DNA of 64,000 bases from Sporichthya polymorpha DSM 43042 (GTDB lineage Bacteria > Actinomycetota > Actinomycetes > Sporichthyales > Sporichthyaceae). Made by a program: the position numbers and the translations under genes. The stretch is from assembly GCF_000384115.1 (NCBI RefSeq), contig NZ_KB913029.1, positions 3,757,057 through 3,821,056 on the forward strand. The letters run 5' to 3'. Numbering within the stretch: the stretch's first letter is position 1; every line of letters begins with the position of its first letter. Shown in pieces: positions 2,264 through 56,644 of this stretch. The notes beneath the pieces are model-generated. The model made no database searches. It was not told where the DNA came from and worked only from the letters and a program-made list of their open reading frames with translations.

Positions 2264-2300
2264 GTGGGCACGGGGCTCGCCTGTGCCGCGCTGCCTGTGA

Positions 2301-2416
2301 TGGAGATGTCATCTTCAGTGCGGGGCGTGGAATGCGGTGGAGATGACATCTCCAGTGCAGGCCGGTGGAGATGACATCTCCAGTGCAGCCCGGTGGAGAT
2401 GGCATCTCCAGTGCAG
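2301..2416. repeat. Array of four palindromes, core GGAGATGNCATCTCC
   Basis: Four units carry the dyad GGAGATG-N-CATCTCC followed by AGTGC: 2301-2320 (imperfect, centre T), 2338-2360 (centre A), 2366-2388 (centre A) and 2394-2416 (centre G). The last three are spaced exactly 28 bp apart and the first 37 bp before the second. The central base changes while the 7-bp arms are kept, which suggests that symmetry is under selection, as in dimer-binding sites or a repeated hairpin. Confidence 0.8.
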
Positions 2417-2608
2417 GGGCGTTGCGGGTGACGGGGCGGCTGCGGTCGGGGTGTCCTCCGTCGCTGCCTCCCGGACGCGCGGGAGTCGGGGGTGGGTGGC
2501 TGCGGCGGTGCGGCCGCGCGTCCTGCTCGCGCGTCCTTCGGCCGCGCGGGTCGGCTTGACGCTCCTTGAGGACACCCCGACCTCCGCCGCCGGGCCCCGG
2601 GCGAGCTC

Positions 2609-44294: not shown

Positions 44295-45140
44295 GTGACC
44301 GCTGCGACCGAGGAGCCCAGGAAGAGCCGGGCCGGGCGCAATCTGCCCGCCGCCATCGGCGTGGGCGTCGGCATGGGCTCGATCGCCACGGCCTCGCTGA
44401 TCTTCGAGCCCGCGGTCTTCGTCGGCGTCGTGGCCGTCGCGATCCTCATCGCGCTCTGGGAGTTCGGCAACGCCCTCGCCACCACGGGGGTGCGGATCCC
44501 GCTCGTGCCGCTCGGCATCGGCACGGTCGCGATGCTCGCAGCCGCCTACGAGGCCGGCACCGAGTCCCTCATGGTCGGCCTGCTGCTGACCGTGCTGGGC
44601 GTCATCGGCTGGCGGATCGCCGAGGGTCCCGACGGCTTCGTCCGGGACGTCACCGCCGGCGTCTTCACCAGCGTCTACCTGCCCTTCCTCGCCGGCTTCG
44701 CGATCCTCATGGTCGCGGCGCCGAACGACGGCGCCGAGCGGGTGGCGACGTTCATCCTCGTCGTCGTCTGCAACGACGTCGGCGGCTACGCCGCCGGGGT
44801 GCTGTTCGGCAAGCACCCGATGGCGCCGCGCATCAGCCCGAAGAAGTCGTGGGAGGGCATGGCCGGCTCCCTCGTCGCCTGCGCCACGGGCGGCGCGATC
44901 TGCATGGCGACGCTGATGGACGACGCGGCCTGGAAGGGCGTCGTGCTCGGCCTCGCGCTCGCCGTCGCGGCGACCGTCGGGGACCTCGGCGAGTCGGTGC
45001 TCAAGCGCGACATCGGCGTCAAGGACATGGGGACCCTGCTCCCCGGCCACGGCGGCATCATGGACCGCCTCGACTCGCTGCTGATCGCCGCCCCGATCTG
45101 CTGGCTGCTGCTCTCGTTCTTCGTCGACCCGACGCCCTGA
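44295..45140 (+). CDS. cdsA: Phosphatidate cytidylyltransferase
   Basis: CdsA makes CDP-diacylglycerol from phosphatidic acid and CTP in the membrane. The 281-aa product has about eight hydrophobic helices and the C-terminal family signature ESVLKRDIGVKDMGTLLPGH...DRLDS near 236-265, with the conserved S, K-R, K-D, P-G-H-G-G and D-R-x-D residues. Another conserved stretch KKSWEGMAGSLVA lies near 182. The GTG start lies nine bases after frr. It converges on the glyA operon across a perfect 50-bp palindrome. Confidence 0.94.
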   Translation: MTAATEEPRKSRAGRNLPAAIGVGVGMGSIATASLIFEPAVFVGVVAVAILIALWEFGNALATTGVRIPLVPLGIGTVAMLAAAYEAGTESLMVGLLLTVLGVIGWRIAEGPDGFVRDVTAGVFTSVYLPFLAGFAILMVAAPNDGAERVATFILVVVCNDVGGYAAGVLFGKHPMAPRISPKKSWEGMAGSLVACATGGAICMATLMDDAAWKGVVLGLALAVAATVGDLGESVLKRDIGVKDMGTLLPGHGGIMDRLDSLLIAAPICWLLLSFFVDPTP

Positions 45141-45166
45141 CGCCGCGGCCCCCTCGGACTCTCGTC

Positions 45167-45216
45167 AAAAAAGGGTGACACCCCTTACTCGCGAGTAAGG
45201 GGTGTCACCCTTTTTT
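45167..45216. terminator. Perfect 50-bp palindrome, bidirectional terminator
   Basis: The sequence from AAAAAAGGGTGACACCCC to GGGGTGTCACCCTTTTTT is its own reverse complement over all 50 bases, centred on ACTCGCGAGT. In each direction it gives a long GC stem followed by six T, so it can end transcription of cdsA and of the opposing glyA unit. The core is shared with hairpins at 2701 and 51456. Confidence 0.9.
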
Positions 45217-45225
45217 GCACAGCGG

Positions 45226-45506
45226 TCAGGCGTCGAGGAGTTCGCGGAGTTCGGCGGCCTCGGCGCGGTACTTCGCCTGCTGCTCGGGGTGCAGGACGCG
45301 CAGGTTGAACAGGACCTGCTCGGCGGCGGCGTCGCTGCAGTCGAGCAGGGTGCGGACCTGGGTCCGCAACTCCGGCGCGCCGGACCGGACGAGGGCGAGG
45401 ACGGCGTCGGTCTGGTCGCCGAGGGCGATCAGCGCCTCGAAGATCTCCGCCCGCAGGGCGAGCGCCTCCCGCTCCTCGGCGGTGCGAGGAGCCGGTGTGC
45501 CCGTCA

Positions 45507-45507
<1 letters not shown>
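45226..45507 (-). CDS. Small protein resembling the GyrA coiled-coil segment
   Basis: The 93-aa product has no assigned function that I recognise. By eye, AEIFEALIALGDQTDAVLAL (residues 20-39), VRTLLDCSDAAAEQVLFNLR (51-70) and KYRAEAAELRELL follow the pattern of the GyrA/ParC coiled-coil region just after the breakage-reunion core, without the DNA-cleaving tyrosine part. The ATG at 45507 overlaps the glyA stop by one base, so it is translated with glyA. It ends next to the 50-bp terminator palindrome. The similarity is weak and needs a profile search. Confidence 0.6.
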
Positions 45508-46763
<1,256 letters not shown>

Positions 46764-46802
46764 GGGTCCTCCTGTGCCGTACGGCACACCTCGGTGGTCA
46801 CG
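46764..46802 (-). promoter_or_regulatory. Expression platform hairpin next to the glyA ribosome binding site
   Basis: On the reverse strand the perfect 16-bp palindrome TGTGCCGTACGGCACA (46773-46788) is followed directly by GGAGGACCC and the GTG; its last A also starts the AGGAGG. A switch in pairing here could mask or free the ribosome binding site or stop transcription. Its place between the riboswitch core and the start codon suits an expression platform. Confidence 0.55.
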
Positions 46803-46803
46803 G

Positions 46804-46882
46804 AGCCCAGGCGCACGGCCCCGCACTGCAAGCTCCCCGGCGGTGAACTCCGCCTGTGAACGCGCCAGTCGCAGGTCCCAAA
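46804..46882 (-). ncRNA. ZTP riboswitch (pfl motif) in the glyA leader
   Basis: The reverse strand has the three conserved parts of the ZTP/ZMP riboswitch in order: GGGACCTGCGACTGGCGC, CACCGCCGGGGAGC and, after a variable stem, GCCGTGCGCCTGGGC. These match the known ZTP aptamer words (CGACTGGCG, CCGGGGAGC, CGCCTGGGC). The class is known to precede glyA, purH, folD and fhs, and glyA is a common target in actinobacteria. The identification is by eye from motif order and gene context; a covariance search was not run. Confidence 0.82.
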
Positions 46883-48715: not shown

Positions 48716-50167
48716 ATGCGGTCCGTCCTCCACCTCCTCCGCCGGACGACGTTCGGGATCACCCCCGAACTGCTCGTCGACGTCGAGGACGCGGGCGGCG
48801 CGACGGCCTGGCTGGAGCAGCAGCTCGATCCCGGCTCGATCGACGACGGCACCTGTGCCGCGGCCCTGGCCGCCTGGCCGTTCGCGACCACCGACCCGCA
48901 GGTCAACCACGCCACGATGGGCGCGGGCAACGCGACGTCCATGGAGGACCTGGTCCGCGCGACCCTCGCCCGCCAGATCTGGTCACGGCGTCAGTTGTTC
49001 GAGGTGATGGTCGACTTCTGGTCGAACCACCTGAACATCACCTGCCCGAGCGGGACGGTCTGGGCCACCAAGGCCTGGGACGACGTCCACGTCGTCCGCG
49101 CTCATGCGCTCGGCCGGTTCGAGGACATGCTGCAGGCGTCGGTCACGTCGCCGGCGATGCTGCTCTACCTGAACAACGCGCAGTCGCGCGGCGACGCGGT
49201 GAACGAGAACTACGCCCGCGAACTGCTGGAGCTGCACACCGTCGGCCTCGACGCGGGATACTCCCGCCGCGACATCGTGAACGCCGCCCGCGCCCTGAGC
49301 GGCCTGTCGGTGTGGGAGCGCAGCGACAAGGCCGCGGCGATCTCGCTCGGCACCTTCCGCTACCGGGCGGACTGGCACTACGTCGGTCCGGTCTCGGTCC
49401 TGGGCTGGTCGCACCCCAACGGCGACGCCGCCGGGGGAGTCGAGGTCGCGCGGTCCCTGATCACGTACCTCGCCCGCCACCCGGCGACCGCCGAGCGGAT
49501 CGCCCGCAAGCTCGCGGTCCGCTTCGTCCGCGACAAGCCGCCCGCGGCGCTGGTGCGCCGCCTGGCCCGGGTGTACCTCGACTCCGACACCGAGATCGTG
49601 CCGGTGCTGCGCGCGTTGTTCACCTCGGACGAGTTCGCCGGCTCGGTCGGGGCGAAGGTGCGCCGGCCCGCGGAGATCGTGATCGCCGGCTGGCGCGCGC
49701 TCGGGGCGCAGCCGATCCCGGGCTGGCTCAATCGCAACAATGCCGTCGCGCAGCTGCGTTGGACGCTGTCGGAGATGGGCAACGCCCCGCTGGGGTGGCC
49801 GGCACCCGACGGCTACCCGGACGTCGCCGCCGCCTGGAAGGGCGCGGGTCTGACGCTGACCGCGTGGAACGCGCATCTCACCGCCGCCTCGCACCGCCTG
49901 AACAACGGCGTGCTGTGGCCGGACCTCGTCACGCACTTGCTCGACGGCGCCGTCCCGACGAGCTGGGGTGGCCTCGTCGACACTCTGACGGCCCGTCTGC
50001 TACCCGGTCAGCGGGTGACTCCCGCGCACCGGGCGGCGTTCCTGGCCTTCCTCGCGGACGCCGCCGACGCCGCGGACCCCGCCGCGCTGCGCCCGCAGGA
50101 CCTGAAGGCACTGCTGCCGGTCCTGGTCGCGCTCGTGCTCGACAGCCCGTACTGGAGCGTGCGATGA
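48716..50167 (+). CDS. DUF1800 family protein
   Basis: The 483-aa product follows the DUF1800 pattern: VLHLLRRTTFGITPELL near residues 4-20, FWSNHLNIT near 100, NENYARELLELHTVGLDAGYSRRDIVNAARALSG near 164-197, YHVG-type end with FVRDKPPAALVRRLA near 271 and RRPAEIVIAGWRALGAQP near 317-334. Function is unknown; the family is nearly always paired with DUF1501, as here, and often found in large numbers in soil bacteria. It has no visible signal peptide, unlike its partner. Its stop overlaps the DUF1501 start. Confidence 0.88.
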   Translation: MRSVLHLLRRTTFGITPELLVDVEDAGGATAWLEQQLDPGSIDDGTCAAALAAWPFATTDPQVNHATMGAGNATSMEDLVRATLARQIWSRRQLFEVMVDFWSNHLNITCPSGTVWATKAWDDVHVVRAHALGRFEDMLQASVTSPAMLLYLNNAQSRGDAVNENYARELLELHTVGLDAGYSRRDIVNAARALSGLSVWERSDKAAAISLGTFRYRADWHYVGPVSVLGWSHPNGDAAGGVEVARSLITYLARHPATAERIARKLAVRFVRDKPPAALVRRLARVYLDSDTEIVPVLRALFTSDEFAGSVGAKVRRPAEIVIAGWRALGAQPIPGWLNRNNAVAQLRWTLSEMGNAPLGWPAPDGYPDVAAAWKGAGLTLTAWNAHLTAASHRLNNGVLWPDLVTHLLDGAVPTSWGGLVDTLTARLLPGQRVTPAHRAAFLAFLADAADAADPAALRPQDLKALLPVLVALVLDSPYWSVR

Positions 50168-51441
50168 CGGACGAGTGCCCGGAGTGCACCGGCGCCCGGC
50201 CGGTGAGCCGACGTCGCTTCCTGCAGGCGATCGGGGTGACCGGCGCGGCGGTGGCGGCACCGTCGATGTTCTCGGCCCAGGCGGCCTTCGCCGCCGGACC
50301 GCACCGCGGGCCGGTGCTGGTCGTGATCTCCCTGCGCGGCGGGATGGACGGGCTCTCGCTCGTCCCGCCGGTCGGCGACCCGGACTACGCCAAGCTGCGG
50401 CCGTCCATCGCCGTCCCGCAGCGGACCGCGATCCCGACCGGTGACCCGCGCTTCGGCCTGCACCCGGCGCTCGCGCCGCTCCGTCCGCTCTGGGACTCCG
50501 GCCGGCTCTCGTTCGTCCACGCCGTCGCGTCCGCGGACACCTCGCGCAGCCACTTCAACGCCACCGCCGAACTCGAGCGGTCGGCGCCCTGGACGAACGT
50601 GCACTCGGGCTGGCTGGACCGCGTGCTGCGCGTCAACGGCCGCACCTCGTCGTTCGAGGGGGTTGCCCTCGGGACCGGCGGCCGTCCCGGCCACCTCGTC
50701 GGGGAGAGCGACGTCCTGACGATGCGTTCGCTGTCGAGCTTCACGCTCGCCGGTCCGGAGGCCCTCCGCCCGGGGATGATCCGGGCGCTGCGCGCCCTGC
50801 ACAGCGACCCGAAGGCACCGCAGACCGCCGGCGCGGTCGCGACGCTGAAGGCGCTCGACACCGTCGGAACCATCAACGCCCAGCGGGCCGAGGCGGGCGC
50901 CCCCGCGACCGCCTACCCGGCGAACAGCGCCCTGGGTGCGGCGCTCGCCGACGCCGCCGCGCTGATCCGGGCGGACGTCGGACTGGCCGCGCTGGCGGTC
51001 GAGATCGGCGGTTGGGACATGCACATCGCGCTCGGCAACGCCGGCGAGGGCCAGTTCGCGGCCCTGGCCGGGCAGGTCGCCGCCGCGATCGCCGCGTTCG
51101 GCGCCGACCTGGGCAAGGACTTCGACCGCGTCAACGTCGTGACGATGAGCGAGTTCGGTCGCCGCGCCGGCCAGAACGGCAGCGGCGGCGTCGACCACGG
51201 CCACGGCAACGCGATGCTCCTTGCCGGCGGCGGACTCGTCGGCCGCAAGGTCCACGGCCGGTGGCCGGGGCTCGGCCAGGACGACCTCGACCAGGGCGAC
51301 CTCGCCGCGACGACCGACTACCGCGACGTGCTCGCCGAGTTCCTCGTCCGGCGCGCCGGCCTCGGCCGCGACGCGGTGTCGGTGGTCTTTCCCAACTACC
51401 GGCCCCGCCCGGTCGGCGCCTTCCGCCGCCCGACCGGCTGA
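50164..51441 (+). CDS. DUF1501 family protein with Tat signal
   Basis: The 425-aa product has a twin-arginine signal (SRRRFLQAIGVTGAAVAAPS, residues 15-34, then an A-F-A-A cleavage region) and the alkaline-phosphatase-like DUF1501 core with VVISLRGGMDGLSLVPP near 54-70, SHFNATAELERSAP near 130-143, VEIGGWDMH near 279, NVVTMSEFGRRAGQNG near 322 and DHGHGNAMLLAGG near 342-354, whose Asp/His residues resemble metal ligands. The natural substrate is unknown. It overlaps DUF1800 by four bases. Export as a folded metalloprotein is inferred from the Tat motif. Confidence 0.88.
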   Translation: MTDECPECTGARPVSRRRFLQAIGVTGAAVAAPSMFSAQAAFAAGPHRGPVLVVISLRGGMDGLSLVPPVGDPDYAKLRPSIAVPQRTAIPTGDPRFGLHPALAPLRPLWDSGRLSFVHAVASADTSRSHFNATAELERSAPWTNVHSGWLDRVLRVNGRTSSFEGVALGTGGRPGHLVGESDVLTMRSLSSFTLAGPEALRPGMIRALRALHSDPKAPQTAGAVATLKALDTVGTINAQRAEAGAPATAYPANSALGAALADAAALIRADVGLAALAVEIGGWDMHIALGNAGEGQFAALAGQVAAAIAAFGADLGKDFDRVNVVTMSEFGRRAGQNGSGGVDHGHGNAMLLAGGGLVGRKVHGRWPGLGQDDLDQGDLAATTDYRDVLAEFLVRRAGLGRDAVSVVFPNYRPRPVGAFRRPTG

Positions 51442-51455
51442 ACCGACCGTTCGGT

Positions 51456-51481
51456 CGTCAAGAAAGGGTGTCACCCTTTCT
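51456..51481. terminator. Left half of a terminator hairpin disrupted by the IS
   Basis: GTCAAGAAAGGGTGTCACCCTTTCT is followed by the IS. Joined to TTGAC beyond the right target repeat (52916-52920) it would form GTCAAGAAAGGGTG-T-CACCCTTTCTTGAC, a perfect 29-bp palindrome between the convergent DUF1501 and acyl-CoA synthetase genes. A shorter hairpin (AGAAAGGGTG-T-CACCCTTTCT) still forms at the left end. Confidence 0.75.
51474..51481. repeat. Left target site duplication CCCTTTCT
   Basis: The 8-bp repeat CCCTTTCT flanks the insertion sequence here and at 52910-52917. Eight bases is the usual duplication length for ISL3-family elements. Confidence 0.9.
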
Positions 51482-51510
51482 GGCTCCACTGACGCTTCCG
51501 TGGGTCGTTG
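51482..51510 (+). repeat. Left terminal inverted repeat of the ISL3 element
   Basis: It starts GGCTCCACTGACGC and runs into CCGTGGGTCGTTG; it pairs with the right repeat at 52881-52909. Confidence 0.85.
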
Positions 51511-51593
51511 ATCGCCCTGAAACGGCCACACGCCGTTCCCAGCCTTAGGTTTCTGGCTTGTCGAAGGTCAGAAACTGCAGAGCGGAGAACGGC

Positions 51594-52886
51594 GTGCGGA
51601 ACGCCAGCGTATGGCGCACCTTGCTGAGCGTCGAGAACACGGTGATCGAGGACGTCGAGTTCGACGAAGATGCCGAGGTTGTGGTGGCTCATGTCCGGCC
51701 GCGACGGGCTGGGCGTGGACGGTGCGGGCGCTGCGGGGACAGGGCTCCCTGGTTCGATCGCGGCGAAGGGCGACGCAGGTGGCGAGCGCTCGACATGGGG
51801 ACGGTGCCGGTCTTCATCGAAGCTGACGCGCCCCGGGTGAACTGTGCCGTCCACGGACCGACGGTGCGGCAGGTCCCGTGGGCGCGCCACAGCGCCGGGC
51901 ACACGTACGTGTTCGACCAGCAAGTCGCCTGGCTGGCCACCCAGTGCTCCAAGACCGCGATCACCGAGTTGATGCGGATCGCTTGGCGCACCGTGGGCGC
52001 GATCATCGCCCGGGTCTGGGCCGACACAGCTGCTGGCGTGGACGCGTTCGCCGGGCTGCGGCGGATCGGGATCGATGAGATCTCCTACAAGCGGCACCAC
52101 AAGTACCTGACCGTCGTGGTCGATCACGACTCGGGCCGTTTGGTGTGGGCCAGTCCCGGACGAGAACGCGCGACCGTCCACGCCTTCTTCGACGCACTCG
52201 AGGCATCCGGCGAAGGCAGATGCGCCCAGATCACCCACGTCAGCGCCGATGGCGCCGAGTGGATTGCCGAGGTAGTCAGCACACGATGCCCCAACGCGGT
52301 GCGCTGCGCTGACCCCTTCCACGTGGTCGGCTGGGCCACCGATGCCCTCGACGCGGTACGCCGCGAGGCGTGGAACGAGGCTCGTCGGGCCGGCAACACC
52401 AGGAACCACGGCTGGGCCGAAGGGCGCCGTGTCACCGTCGCGACCGGCCCCGCCCGTGCGCTCAAGCACGCGCGGTTCGCGCTGTGGAAGAACCCGGAGA
52501 ACCTCACCGACCGCCAGCGGGTCAAGCTCGAATGGATCGCCAAGACCGATCCGCGGCTCTACCGGGCCTACCTGCTCAAGGAGGGCCTGCGGACCGTGTT
52601 CAAGCTGCCGGCCGACCAGGCCGCCGAAGCGCTCGACCGGTGGGTCTCCTGGGCACGCAGGTCCCGCATCGAATCGTTCGTCCGGCTCCAGAGCCGGATC
52701 GTGCGCTACCGAGCCGAGATCCTCGCCTCGATCGAGCACGGACTGTCCAACGGCCTCATCGAGTCGGTCAACACCAAGATCCGACTCATCACCCGCATGG
52801 CCTTCGGGTTCGCCGGCCCCGACGCTCTCATCGCACTCGCGATGCTCAACCTCGGCGGCCACCGCCCCGCTCTGCCTGGCCGATGA
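51594..52886 (+). CDS. ISL3-family transposase
   Basis: The 430-aa DDE transposase starts VRNASVWRTLLSVENTVIED, has an N-terminal zinc-like finger (CGRCGDRAPWFDRGEGRRRWR near 46-66, with further Cys/His in VNCAVHGPTV near 83), a helix-turn-helix near 110-140, and the catalytic region with GIDEISYKRHHKYLTVVVD near 159-177, DGAEWIAEVV near 214 and the glutamate of NGLIESVNTKIR near 391-402. The GTG at 51594 has CGGAGAA before it; an earlier TTG at 51558 is less likely. It fills nearly the whole element and has no frameshift. Confidence 0.92.
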   Translation: MRNASVWRTLLSVENTVIEDVEFDEDAEVVVAHVRPRRAGRGRCGRCGDRAPWFDRGEGRRRWRALDMGTVPVFIEADAPRVNCAVHGPTVRQVPWARHSAGHTYVFDQQVAWLATQCSKTAITELMRIAWRTVGAIIARVWADTAAGVDAFAGLRRIGIDEISYKRHHKYLTVVVDHDSGRLVWASPGRERATVHAFFDALEASGEGRCAQITHVSADGAEWIAEVVSTRCPNAVRCADPFHVVGWATDALDAVRREAWNEARRAGNTRNHGWAEGRRVTVATGPARALKHARFALWKNPENLTDRQRVKLEWIAKTDPRLYRAYLLKEGLRTVFKLPADQAAEALDRWVSWARRSRIESFVRLQSRIVRYRAEILASIEHGLSNGLIESVNTKIRLITRMAFGFAGPDALIALAMLNLGGHRPALPGR

Positions 52887-52909
52887 CCCACGGATCAGTC
52901 AGGAGAGCC
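52881..52909 (-). repeat. Right terminal inverted repeat of the ISL3 element
   Basis: On the reverse strand it reads GGCTCTCCTGACTG followed by ATCCGTGGGTCATCG, matching the left end at about 22 of 29 bases. It overlaps the last bases of the transposase gene. Confidence 0.85.
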
Positions 52910-52917
52910 CCCTTTCT
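52910..52917. repeat. Right target site duplication CCCTTTCT
   Basis: Identical to the left copy at 51474-51481; it lies five bases before the stop codon of the acyl-CoA synthetase gene on the reverse strand. Confidence 0.9.
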
Positions 52918-52922
52918 TGACA

Positions 52923-54632
52923 TCAGTCCTCGGCGTAGAGGGCCTCGATCGCGTCGGCGTACTTCTCCGCGATCGGCTTGCGGCGGAGCTTCATGGTCGG
53001 CGTGAGCTCGTCGCCGCCGGGGAGCCAGTCGACGTCGAGCAGGTGCCACTTCTTGATCTGCTCGACGCGGGAGAGCTTCTCGTTCGCGGACGCGACGGCG
53101 GCCCCGACGATCTGCTGCACCTGGGGGTCGGCGGCGAGGGTCCGGGCCGAGGAGTCGGGCAGGCCGGCCTGCTTCGCGTAGGCCGCGGCGGCGTCGGGGT
53201 CGATGACGAGCAGCGCGACGTTGTAGCGCCGCCCGTCGCCGATGCAGACCGCCTGCCCGATCAGGGCGTGGGAGGCCTTGAGCCGCTGCTCGATGTTGGC
53301 CGGCGACATGTTCTTGCCGGCCGCGTTGATGATCAGTTCCTTCTTGCGGTCGACGATGCGGAGAAACCCGTCCTCGACGACGCCGACGTCGCCGGTGTGC
53401 AGCCACCCCTCGTCGTCGATCGCCTCGGCGGTGCGCTCGGGGTCGTTGCGGTACCCCTTCATCAGCAGCGGACCGCGGACCAGGATCTCGCCGTCGTCGG
53501 CGAGCGCCATCTCGGAGCCCGGGATCGGTTGACCCACCGTGCCGGGACGGATGTCGTCGGCCGGCACGCACGTCATGCAGCACGAGGTCTCGGACATGCC
53601 GTAGACCTCCTGGACCGGCAGCCCGAGGTCACCGAAGTACTTGAGCGTCTCGACCGCGATCGGGGCGGCGCCGACGATCGACCACACGACCCGGTCGAGA
53701 CCGATCTTCGCCCGCGCCCCGGCGCGGACCTCCGCGGGCAGCGCGGCCGGGTCCGTCAGACCGCCGGCCTGCAGCGCGGCCATGATCTTCTCGTAGACGC
53801 GCGGTACGCCGCCCCAGAACGTCGGGCGGGCGCTGACCAGTGCCGGGATCAGCTGGGTCTGGTCCGCGACCGTCGTGACGGTGGCCCCGAACGTCGCGGA
53901 GCAGTGGTAGTGGTGGCTCCACCGGTCGGCGATGTGCGCCGACGGCAGGTAGGACACGATCGACCCGCCGACCGGGGTCGGGGTCATCGCCGACATGCCG
54001 CGGATCTGGGCCATCATGCTGGCGTGCGTGAGCTGGGCGCCCTTGGGCGGGCCGGTGGTGCCGGAGGTGTAGATCAGCGTCAGGACGTCGTCCGGCTGGA
54101 CCGCGCGCCAGGCGGCGTCGAAGTCGAAGTCGTCCGAGCCACGGGCGATGAGCTCGTCGAGGGTGGAGGTGCTCGCGTCGCCGCCGTCGATGCAGACGAC
54201 GTGCGCGACCGCGGTGCCCGCCTTGCGGACGGTCTCCAGGAAGGCCTGTTCGCACACCACGACGCGGTTGCCGGCGTTGGAGAACAGGTACTCGACCTGC
54301 TCCGGCGACGAGGTGTTGTAGATCGAGAAGGGCACGGCACCCAGGTGCAGCGCGGCCATGTCGACCAGGTTCATCTCGGGCCGGTTGCGCATCATCAGCG
54401 CGACGGTGTCACCGTGGCCGACCCCGAGAGCGGCGAGGCCGGCGGCGATCTTCCGCACCTGTTCGGCGTACTGGGCGAACGTCAGGCTGATCGAGTCGTC
54501 GGGAGTGCGGAGGGCCACGCGGTCGGTGTGTTCGGCCGCGGTCAGCTGAAACGCCTCGCAGATCGTCGCGGCGCGCAACGCGGGCACGCCCTCCTGAATG
54601 GGACGGTTGCTGCTGGGGATGAGCTGAACCAT
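52923..54632 (-). CDS. fadD: Long-chain fatty acid-CoA ligase (AMP-binding)
   Basis: The 569-aa product is an adenylate-forming acyl-CoA synthetase of the FadD/ACSL type. It has the AMP motif LIYTSGTTGPPKGAQLTHA near residue 178, the family motif VYGMSETSCC near 316-325, DEGWLHTGDVGVVEDGFL near 384-401 and DRKKELIINAAGKNMSP near 405-421, then the C-terminal LTPTMKLRRKPI. The fatty acid chain length is not fixed by these motifs. The ATG at 54632 follows GGAGAACGGC; a second ATG at 54644 lies 12 bases upstream. The ISL3 element sits just after its stop, so its terminator is altered. Confidence 0.88.
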   Translation of the reverse strand: MVQLIPSSNRPIQEGVPALRAATICEAFQLTAAEHTDRVALRTPDDSISLTFAQYAEQVRKIAAGLAALGVGHGDTVALMMRNRPEMNLVDMAALHLGAVPFSIYNTSSPEQVEYLFSNAGNRVVVCEQAFLETVRKAGTAVAHVVCIDGGDASTSTLDELIARGSDDFDFDAAWRAVQPDDVLTLIYTSGTTGPPKGAQLTHASMMAQIRGMSAMTPTPVGGSIVSYLPSAHIADRWSHHYHCSATFGATVTTVADQTQLIPALVSARPTFWGGVPRVYEKIMAALQAGGLTDPAALPAEVRAGARAKIGLDRVVWSIVGAAPIAVETLKYFGDLGLPVQEVYGMSETSCCMTCVPADDIRPGTVGQPIPGSEMALADDGEILVRGPLLMKGYRNDPERTAEAIDDEGWLHTGDVGVVEDGFLRIVDRKKELIINAAGKNMSPANIEQRLKASHALIGQAVCIGDGRRYNVALLVIDPDAAAAYAKQAGLPDSSARTLAADPQVQQIVGAAVASANEKLSRVEQIKKWHLLDVDWLPGGDELTPTMKLRRKPIAEKYADAIEALYAED

Positions 54633-54763
54633 GCCGTTCTCCATCGTCAGGGGCTCGCATGCCGGGACTCGGGGCAGCCAATCAGGTCGCACCCGGTTTG
54701 TCAGGCCCTCCAACGGTTGGGACGGGGCTGGCCGTTCCCGCACGTGGAAGACAGGATGAGCCC

Positions 54764-56644
54764 ATGGGTGCCTACTCCGACGCGTTCCGCCGCAGTATCG
54801 AAGACCCGACCGGCTTCTGGGCCGAGGCCGCGCAGGCCGTGGACTGGACCCGGGCACCGACGACGGTGCTCGACGACAGTCGGGCCCCGTTCGTGCGCTG
54901 GTTCCCTGACGGAGAGCTGAACACCTGTCACAACGCGTTGGACCGGCACGTGGACGGCGGCCGCGCCGACCAGACCGCGCTGATCTACGACAGCCCCATG
55001 ACCGGCCGTCAGGCGCGCTTCACCTACGCCGAGCTCCGCGACCAGGTCGCCCGCTTCGGCGGCGTGCTCCGCAGGCTCGGCGTCGAGAAGGGCGACCGGG
55101 TCGTGATCTACATGCCGATGGTCCCCGAGGCCGTGGTCGCGATGCTGGCCTGCGCGCGGATCGGGGCGGTCCACTCGGTGGTTTTCGGCGGCTTCGCGCC
55201 CCGCGAGCTCGCGGCCCGGATCGACGACGCCCAGCCCAAGGTCATCGTCGCCGCCTCGTGCGGTCTCGAGCCGACGCGGGTCGTCGAGTACAAGCCGATG
55301 ATCGCCGCGGCCATCGAGATCGCCGCGCACAAGCCCGAGACGTGCGTGGTGCTCCAGCGTGAGCAGGCGCGGGCCGAGCTGGGTCCGGACGACGTCGACT
55401 GGACCGAGGCCATGGCGGCCGCCGAGCCGGTCGAGTGCGTCCCCGTCGGGGCGAACGACCCGCTCTACATCCTCTACACGTCGGGCACGACCGGGAAGCC
55501 GAAGGGCATCGTCCGCGACAACGGGGGTCACGCCGTCGCGCTGCTGTGGTCGATCCGTAACGTCTTCGGTCTCGAGCCGGGCGAGGTGTGGTGGACCGCG
55601 TCCGACGTCGGCTGGGTCGTCGGCCACTCCTACATCGTCTACGCCCCGCTGCTGCTCGGCGCGACGACGATCCTCTACGAGGGCAAGCCGGTCGGAACCC
55701 CCGACGCGGGCGCGTTCTGGCGGGTCATCGCCGAGCACGGCGCGGTCACGCTCTTCACCGCCCCGACGGTGTTCCGCGCGATCAAGAAGGAGGACCCGGA
55801 CGCGAAGCTGCTGGCGCAGTACGACATCTCCAAACTGCGCGCGCTGTTCCTCGCGGGGGAGCGGCTCGACCCCGACACCTACCACTGGGCGACCGAGAAG
55901 TCCGGGGTGCCGGTCATCGACCACTGGTGGCAGACCGAGACGGGCTGGCCGATCTGCGCGAACCTCCGCGGCCTGGAGCCGATGCCGATCAAGCCGGGCT
56001 CGCCGTCGGTGCCCGTGCCGGGGTGGGACGTCCAGGTCCTCGACCCCGAGGGCAACCGGGTCGGCCCGAACACCGAGGGCGCGATCTGCATCAAGCTCCC
56101 GCTCCCGCCCGGGGCCCTGCCGACGCTGTGGAACGACGACGACCGCTTCGTCGCGAGCTACCTGTCGGCGTTCGACGGCTACTACCTCTCCGGCGACGGC
56201 GGGTACGTCGACGAGGACGGTTACGTCTACGTGCTCGGGCGGACCGACGACGTCATCAACGTCGCCGGCCACCGACTCTCGACCGGCTCGATGGAGGCCG
56301 TGCTCGCCGCGCACCCGGCCGTCGCCGAGTGCGCGGTGATCGGCGTCCACGACTCGCTCAAGGGCCAGGTCCCGCGCGGGTTCGTCGTGCTCAAGGCCGG
56401 CATGGACGTCGACCCCGAGGCGCTCTCCGCCGAACTGGTCGCCGCGGTGCGCAACGAGATCGGCGCGGTCGCGGCGTTCAAGCGGGCGGACGTCGTCCCG
56501 GCGCTGCCGAAGACCCGCTCGGGCAAGATCCTGCGCCGCACCATGCGCGGGATCGCCGACGGTCGCGACGAGCCCGTGCCCTCGACGATCGAGGACGCGA
56601 GCGTGCTCGACAAGCTGCGCCCGATCCTGACGAAGGAGTCCTGA
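54764..56644 (+). CDS. Short-chain acyl-CoA synthetase (PrpE/AcsA-like)
   Basis: The 626-aa product belongs to the acetyl/propionyl-CoA synthetase group: an N-terminal ACAS domain (YSDAFRRSIEDPTGFWAEAA), LYILYTSGTTGKPKGIVRDNGG near 236-257, VIDHWWQTETGWPICAN near 384-400 and the C-terminal KTRSGKILRRTMRGIA near 585-600, whose lysine is the reversible acetylation site in this family. The residue pattern DNGGH after the AMP motif resembles propionyl-CoA synthetase PrpE more than Acs. The ATG at 54764 is chosen by homology. It is divergent from fadD and converges on the CACHE gene after 29 bases. Confidence 0.85.
   Translation: MGAYSDAFRRSIEDPTGFWAEAAQAVDWTRAPTTVLDDSRAPFVRWFPDGELNTCHNALDRHVDGGRADQTALIYDSPMTGRQARFTYAELRDQVARFGGVLRRLGVEKGDRVVIYMPMVPEAVVAMLACARIGAVHSVVFGGFAPRELAARIDDAQPKVIVAASCGLEPTRVVEYKPMIAAAIEIAAHKPETCVVLQREQARAELGPDDVDWTEAMAAAEPVECVPVGANDPLYILYTSGTTGKPKGIVRDNGGHAVALLWSIRNVFGLEPGEVWWTASDVGWVVGHSYIVYAPLLLGATTILYEGKPVGTPDAGAFWRVIAEHGAVTLFTAPTVFRAIKKEDPDAKLLAQYDISKLRALFLAGERLDPDTYHWATEKSGVPVIDHWWQTETGWPICANLRGLEPMPIKPGSPSVPVPGWDVQVLDPEGNRVGPNTEGAICIKLPLPPGALPTLWNDDDRFVASYLSAFDGYYLSGDGGYVDEDGYVYVLGRTDDVINVAGHRLSTGSMEAVLAAHPAVAECAVIGVHDSLKGQVPRGFVVLKAGMDVDPEALSAELVAAVRNEIGAVAAFKRADVVPALPKTRSGKILRRTMRGIADGRDEPVPSTIEDASVLDKLRPILTKES

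Follow-up and report, generated by a model that had tools for sequence, protein, structure and literature searches.

An ISL3-family insertion sequence of Sporichthya polymorpha that probably targets a symmetric site in a dispersed palindromic repeat

A 64,000-nucleotide stretch of the Sporichthya polymorpha genome (hereafter, the window) carries an ISL3-family insertion sequence (IS), which, taken as a whole, is probably a recently active element with an unusually sharp target choice. The best overall explanation, which we consider likely, is that this element targets the symmetric site TGTCA-N8-TGACA supplied by a dispersed palindromic repeat.

Structure of the Insertion Sequence

The IS is intact, 1,428 bp long, and located on the plus strand at window positions 51482-52909. 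End-to-end comparison of its termini gave inverted repeats identical at 21 of 28 positions, the left one (51482-51509, +) beginning with GGCTCCACTGACGCTTCCGTGGGTC... and the right one (52882-52909, -) with GGCTCTCCTGACTGATCCGTGGGTC..., and comparison of the flanks revealed the 8-bp target duplication CCCTTTCT abutting both ends (51474-51481 and 52910-52917), the match not extending to 9 or 10 bp. The boundaries and the imperfect terminal repeats of about 29 bp described in an earlier note on this DNA were thereby reproduced. The open reading frame at 51558-52886 (+), which starts with TTG, encodes a 442-residue transposase that matched PF01610 (232 bits, 9.6e-69), PF13542, and PF14690, all above the cut-off; these three domains represent a DDE transposase with a zinc ribbon and an HTH. 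Both the 8-bp target duplication and terminal repeats beginning with GGCTC are common to its relatives, and in its anatomy the element is an ordinary ISL3 member. A second, identical copy is present in the same genome (G000:C1:4026477-4027904, locus L031).

The Split Palindrome and Its Empty Counterpart

The IS separates two convergent genes, of which the upstream one (50164-51441, +), supported by a gene call and a congener match, encodes a DUF1501-type protein as named in the earlier note, and the downstream one (52923-54857, -) encodes an AMP-binding, fadD-like enzyme (PF00501, 1.2e-71). When the IS and one duplication are removed, the flanks join as GTCAAGAAAGGGTG-T-CACCCTTTCTTGAC, which is the perfect 29-bp palindrome that had been claimed for this site. 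The further claim that a terminator-like palindrome was split agrees with the folding of the flanks: the left part (51457-51481), on the DUF1501 side, retains a complete short hairpin, AGAAAGGGTG-T-CACCCTTTCT, and the right part (52910-52921), after fadD, is a half arm, CCCTTTCTTGAC, that forms no hairpin. Transcripts of fadD may possibly read through into the IS, antisense to the transposase gene.

The earlier note had proposed a search of related genomes for the empty site with an intact palindrome, and such a site was seen on contig C44 of a congener (G002), where the same convergent fadD/DUF1501 pair without the IS reads GTGACGAAAGGGTGTCACCCTTTCTTCAC. The claim thus withstood the refuting condition set in the note, namely an IS-free relative in which the 29-bp palindrome is missing. 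G002 is about 95% identical to the window at the IS locus, and its orthologues of fadD and the DUF1501-type protein share 95% and 93% amino-acid identity, respectively.

Copies and Forms of the Palindromic Repeat

The window palindrome did not arise by chance, because the 5.50-Mb genome (G000) contains 59 occurrences of its 14-base arm GTCAAGAAAGGGTG and 0 of the reversed control. It belongs to a repeat of more than 100 copies in this genome, which the earlier note had missed. A shorter arm pattern, AAAGGGTGWCACC, was found 221 times in G000 and 261 times in G002, with 0 occurrences of its reversed control. This pattern is absent genome-wide from the third congener (G001) and from two family members, and occurs 0 to 2 times per genome in more distant genomes of the same class. 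No palindrome of comparable abundance was found in the 368 kb of G001 examined; loci L259 and L260 of that genome hold other short intergenic repeats, around ATTCGTGGAGCGAAATGGAGTCAAC. The repeat was not found in the viral contigs or plasmids searched, and Rfam gave no real match to it, one sub-threshold miRNA match being ascribed to chance.

The majority of the copies have the long form, GTCARRAAAGGGTGACACCCCTTACTGCGCAGTAAGGGGTGTCACCCTTTYTTGAC, of a repeat of about 56 bp, and the window palindrome is its short form, which is devoid of the inner 27 bp. A 44-bp core is kept as an exact sequence whose main variable place is a 4-base tip, and orthologous sites in G002 keep the repeat though the neighboring intergenic DNA often differs. 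At one locus, G000 has the 29-bp short form (L006, G000 972593) and G002 has the long form (L234); judged from this pair, the two forms interconvert, probably through loss of the inner part. The repeat is short, extragenic, palindromic, and present in high copy number, which are the features of a REP element.

Within the window, repeat matching and gene calls placed an intact long-form copy at 45164-45219, between convergent genes at 44295-45140 (+) and 45226-45507 (-), and sequence comparison gave a divergent relative (GTGGGGGTGACACCC...GGGTGTCACCCCCAC) at 2702-2747, also between convergent genes. A second dispersed palindrome, TGGAGATGWCATCTCCAGTGCA, is clustered at window positions 2300-2420 and was counted 32 times in 800 kb of G002 (loci L219-L258); it often lies near the putative terminator repeat described above and is also mostly 3' of genes. 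Furthermore, a ZMP/ZTP riboswitch above the Rfam gathering score was located at 46798-46882 (-), upstream of the gene at 45507-46763 (-).

Target Sites of the IS Copies

GTCA was found directly outside the 8-mer at all 12 IS ends of G000 and G002 (as TGTCA at 11 of them), and 11 of the 12 ends lie in a repeat arm at one register, TGTCA[ANAAAGGG]TGACA. Most copies of the IS are thus inserted at one position in one dispersed extragenic palindrome, as is the case for REP-targeting elements. The earlier note had suggested mapping the other copies to similar hairpins, and they indeed occupy the same kind of site. The L031 copy interrupts another repeat, as GTCA[AAAAAGGG]TGACACC, and its full hairpin is retained in the right flank, whereas the window site has retained one only in the left. 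Eight IS ends of G002 were detected at contig edges, seven of them in repeat arms at the same register. The eighth, on C57 (L178), reads TTGTCA[AGAATTCC] and is the sole insertion outside the repeat, with one flank seen; its orthologous site was sought in G000 and not found. The ends C10/C52 and C46/C56 pair by their duplications, and C47 and C48, which have different duplications, map within about 1 kb in G000 (G000:C1:3941569-3942801), so that a single rearranged insertion, seen from both sides, or recombination between two IS copies may account for them. At least seven insertions are represented, of which G000 accounts for two and G002 for at least five, giving a sample of 7 to 8 from two closely related species. 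Four of the insertion sites are empty and carry the repeat in the other species, namely the window site (empty in G002) and those of C10/C52, C48, and C51 (empty in G000). The pattern TGTCA-N8-TGACA was counted 52 times in G000, 76 times in G002, and 0 times in G001, its reversed form occurring 0 times in all three, and nearly all of the sites listed for G000 and G002 are repeat arms.

In the mechanism that we favor, the transposase would insert at an 8-bp site between inverted TGTCA and TGACA (consensus TGTCA-ANAAAGGG-TGACA), and nearly all such sites in both species would be provided by repeat arms just 3' of genes. An 8-bp staggered cut would duplicate ANAAAGGG, the A/T-rich edge of the arm, and would therefore leave one flank with a complete hairpin and the other with a half arm, and insertion at these sites would strike no coding sequence.

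A simpler explanation would be that the element shows no more than the preference for short A/T runs that is usual in ISL3. A G+C-rich genome would offer few intergenic A/T runs where an insertion does no harm, the A-tracts of the repeat being among them, and the surviving insertions would therefore be found there. Streptomyces-type ISL3 relatives, whose transposases are about 60-64% identical, indeed exhibit duplications of the form NNWWWWNN with no flanking motif (46 flanks), and the repeat arms do carry an A-tract. The window contains 206 8-mers with an A/T run of four, of which 130 are intergenic, and repeat arms constitute about 2% of the intergenic A/T-run 8-mers genome-wide. The chance of finding seven of eight insertions in repeat arms, given intergenic survival, was accordingly evaluated as about 1e-11 (C47 and C48 being counted separately; six of seven gives the same conclusion), and an A/T preference alone was rejected as sufficient. 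Moreover, the register is identical at every repeat insertion, the duplications ANAAAGGG have no central A/T block such as that of the relatives, and the C57 copy outside the repeat still has TTGTCA, which together make this simpler explanation very improbable.

The closest named relatives, 80% identical, are those of Mycobacterium aquaticum and Mycolicibacterium llatzerense, each with one copy located at a GTCA...TGAC palindrome. The GTCA flank is absent in the other ISL3 relatives compared, which are those of G033 (three copies), Intrasporangium, and Streptomyces. The M. aquaticum and M. llatzerense cases, two in number, suggest that the GTCA...TGAC preference may be older than the dispersed repeat.

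The earlier note had also suggested that hairpin DNA can be a target for this family, in which case the transposase would recognize a hairpin or cruciform extruded by the palindrome. In favor of this idea, a long palindrome is indeed what is targeted, and a hairpin loop is the site of the M. llatzerense relative. However, the insertions occur in the arm, far from the axis, and long and short forms were hit at the same arm register despite their different hairpins. In addition, the repeat does not contain the C57 insertion, and no palindrome surrounds most of the ISL3 relatives. Recognition of the hairpin itself is hence unlikely, the evidence favoring the sequence TGTCA-N8-TGACA, which lies in one arm and away from the hairpin axis. 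We infer that what the transposase reads is this TGTCA...TGACA sequence, and not the shape of a hairpin or a protein bound there. Each IS junction has TGTCA 8 bp outside the cut and TGAC 8 bp inside. A speculative extension, to which we give rather little weight, is that TGAC is read by one and the same surface of the transposase, in the IS ends as well as in the target, and that such an evolved, end-like symmetric target code would make the terminator repeats a renewable safe harbor.

Gene Context and Putative Terminator Role of the Repeat

The gene context was evaluated for 64 sampled copies of the repeat, using genes called by a home-made codon-usage caller. Convergent genes flanked 45 copies, 17 followed a gene on the same strand (in nearly all cases no more than about 60 bp from the stop codon), 0 were between divergent genes, and 2 were apparently genic; the median position was about 20 bp after stop codons. 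Located at gene 3' ends, the repeat has a G+C stem with an A-tract before it and a T-tract after it, which is the structure of a bidirectional intrinsic terminator, and its fold energy was about -44 kcal/mol for the long form and, in the DUF1501 direction, about -22 kcal/mol for the short form. Because of this position and layout, the repeat is probably a family of bidirectional intrinsic terminators. It was not flagged by a simple terminator scan that requires the stem to be followed by unpaired T.

It is also conceivable, though less probable, that the repeat acts mainly in a REP-like manner, as a mobile or protein-binding element, and that its 3' location is a by-product. The exact conservation of the 44-bp core is consistent with such a role, as is the pairing of the outer arms, which was no better than that of shuffled columns and exhibited no covariation; in the core, covariation is uninformative because the sequence is nearly invariant. 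Furthermore, its distribution, present in two of the three congeners but absent elsewhere, resembles a lineage-specific repeat burst. One seemingly compensatory change, at the window site, is no more than anecdotal. Against a purely REP-like role, the tract-stem-tract arrangement has the look of an intrinsic terminator whichever strand is read, the copies follow stop codons closely and never separate divergent genes, and the little variation in the core is mainly confined to its tip. The terminator and REP-like roles are not mutually exclusive.

Comparison with Known Systems

REP-targeting is known for elements of the IS3, IS110, IS4, IS256, and IS5 families, with IS1397, ISKpn1, IS621, ISPsy8, ISPa11, ISPpu9/10, ISRm22, and ISRm19 as examples, and ISL3 is not among these families (PMC1525189). 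The open-licence papers that name ISL3 together with repetitive extragenic palindromes yielded no such targeting; the window IS is, by its behavior, a new case of repeat-targeting whose precedence is not certain. It adds an ISL3 element to the ISs that land in dispersed palindromes, and its symmetric target, TGTCA-N8-TGACA, is defined well enough for direct testing. A second outcome is a set of near-identical terminators, probably bidirectional, that number more than 100 and are restricted to the genus. Elements that aim at terminators spare coding sequence and could become gentle insertion tools.

In the REP-targeting ISs (PMC1525189), as in the window IS, a single register of a dispersed extragenic palindrome holds all or nearly all copies, but the window IS belongs to ISL3, uses a different repeat, and enters the arm instead of the axis. 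It resembles the ISL3 family in its three Pfam domains, 8-bp duplication, terminal repeats of about 28 bp, and size of about 1.4 kb, whereas the Streptomyces-type relatives use any short A/T run and not TGTCA-N8-TGACA. The repeat, for its part, resembles REP/BIME repeats in that each genome has more than 100 copies of a short extragenic palindrome, which are lineage-specific and often separate convergent genes, and differs from them in being a 56-bp near-perfect palindrome with A/T-tract edges. With bidirectional intrinsic terminators it has in common a G+C-rich stem that is bordered by an A-tract and a T-tract and lies between convergent genes, but near-identity at more than 100 places in a genome, as in this dispersed repeat, is not a property of ordinary terminators.
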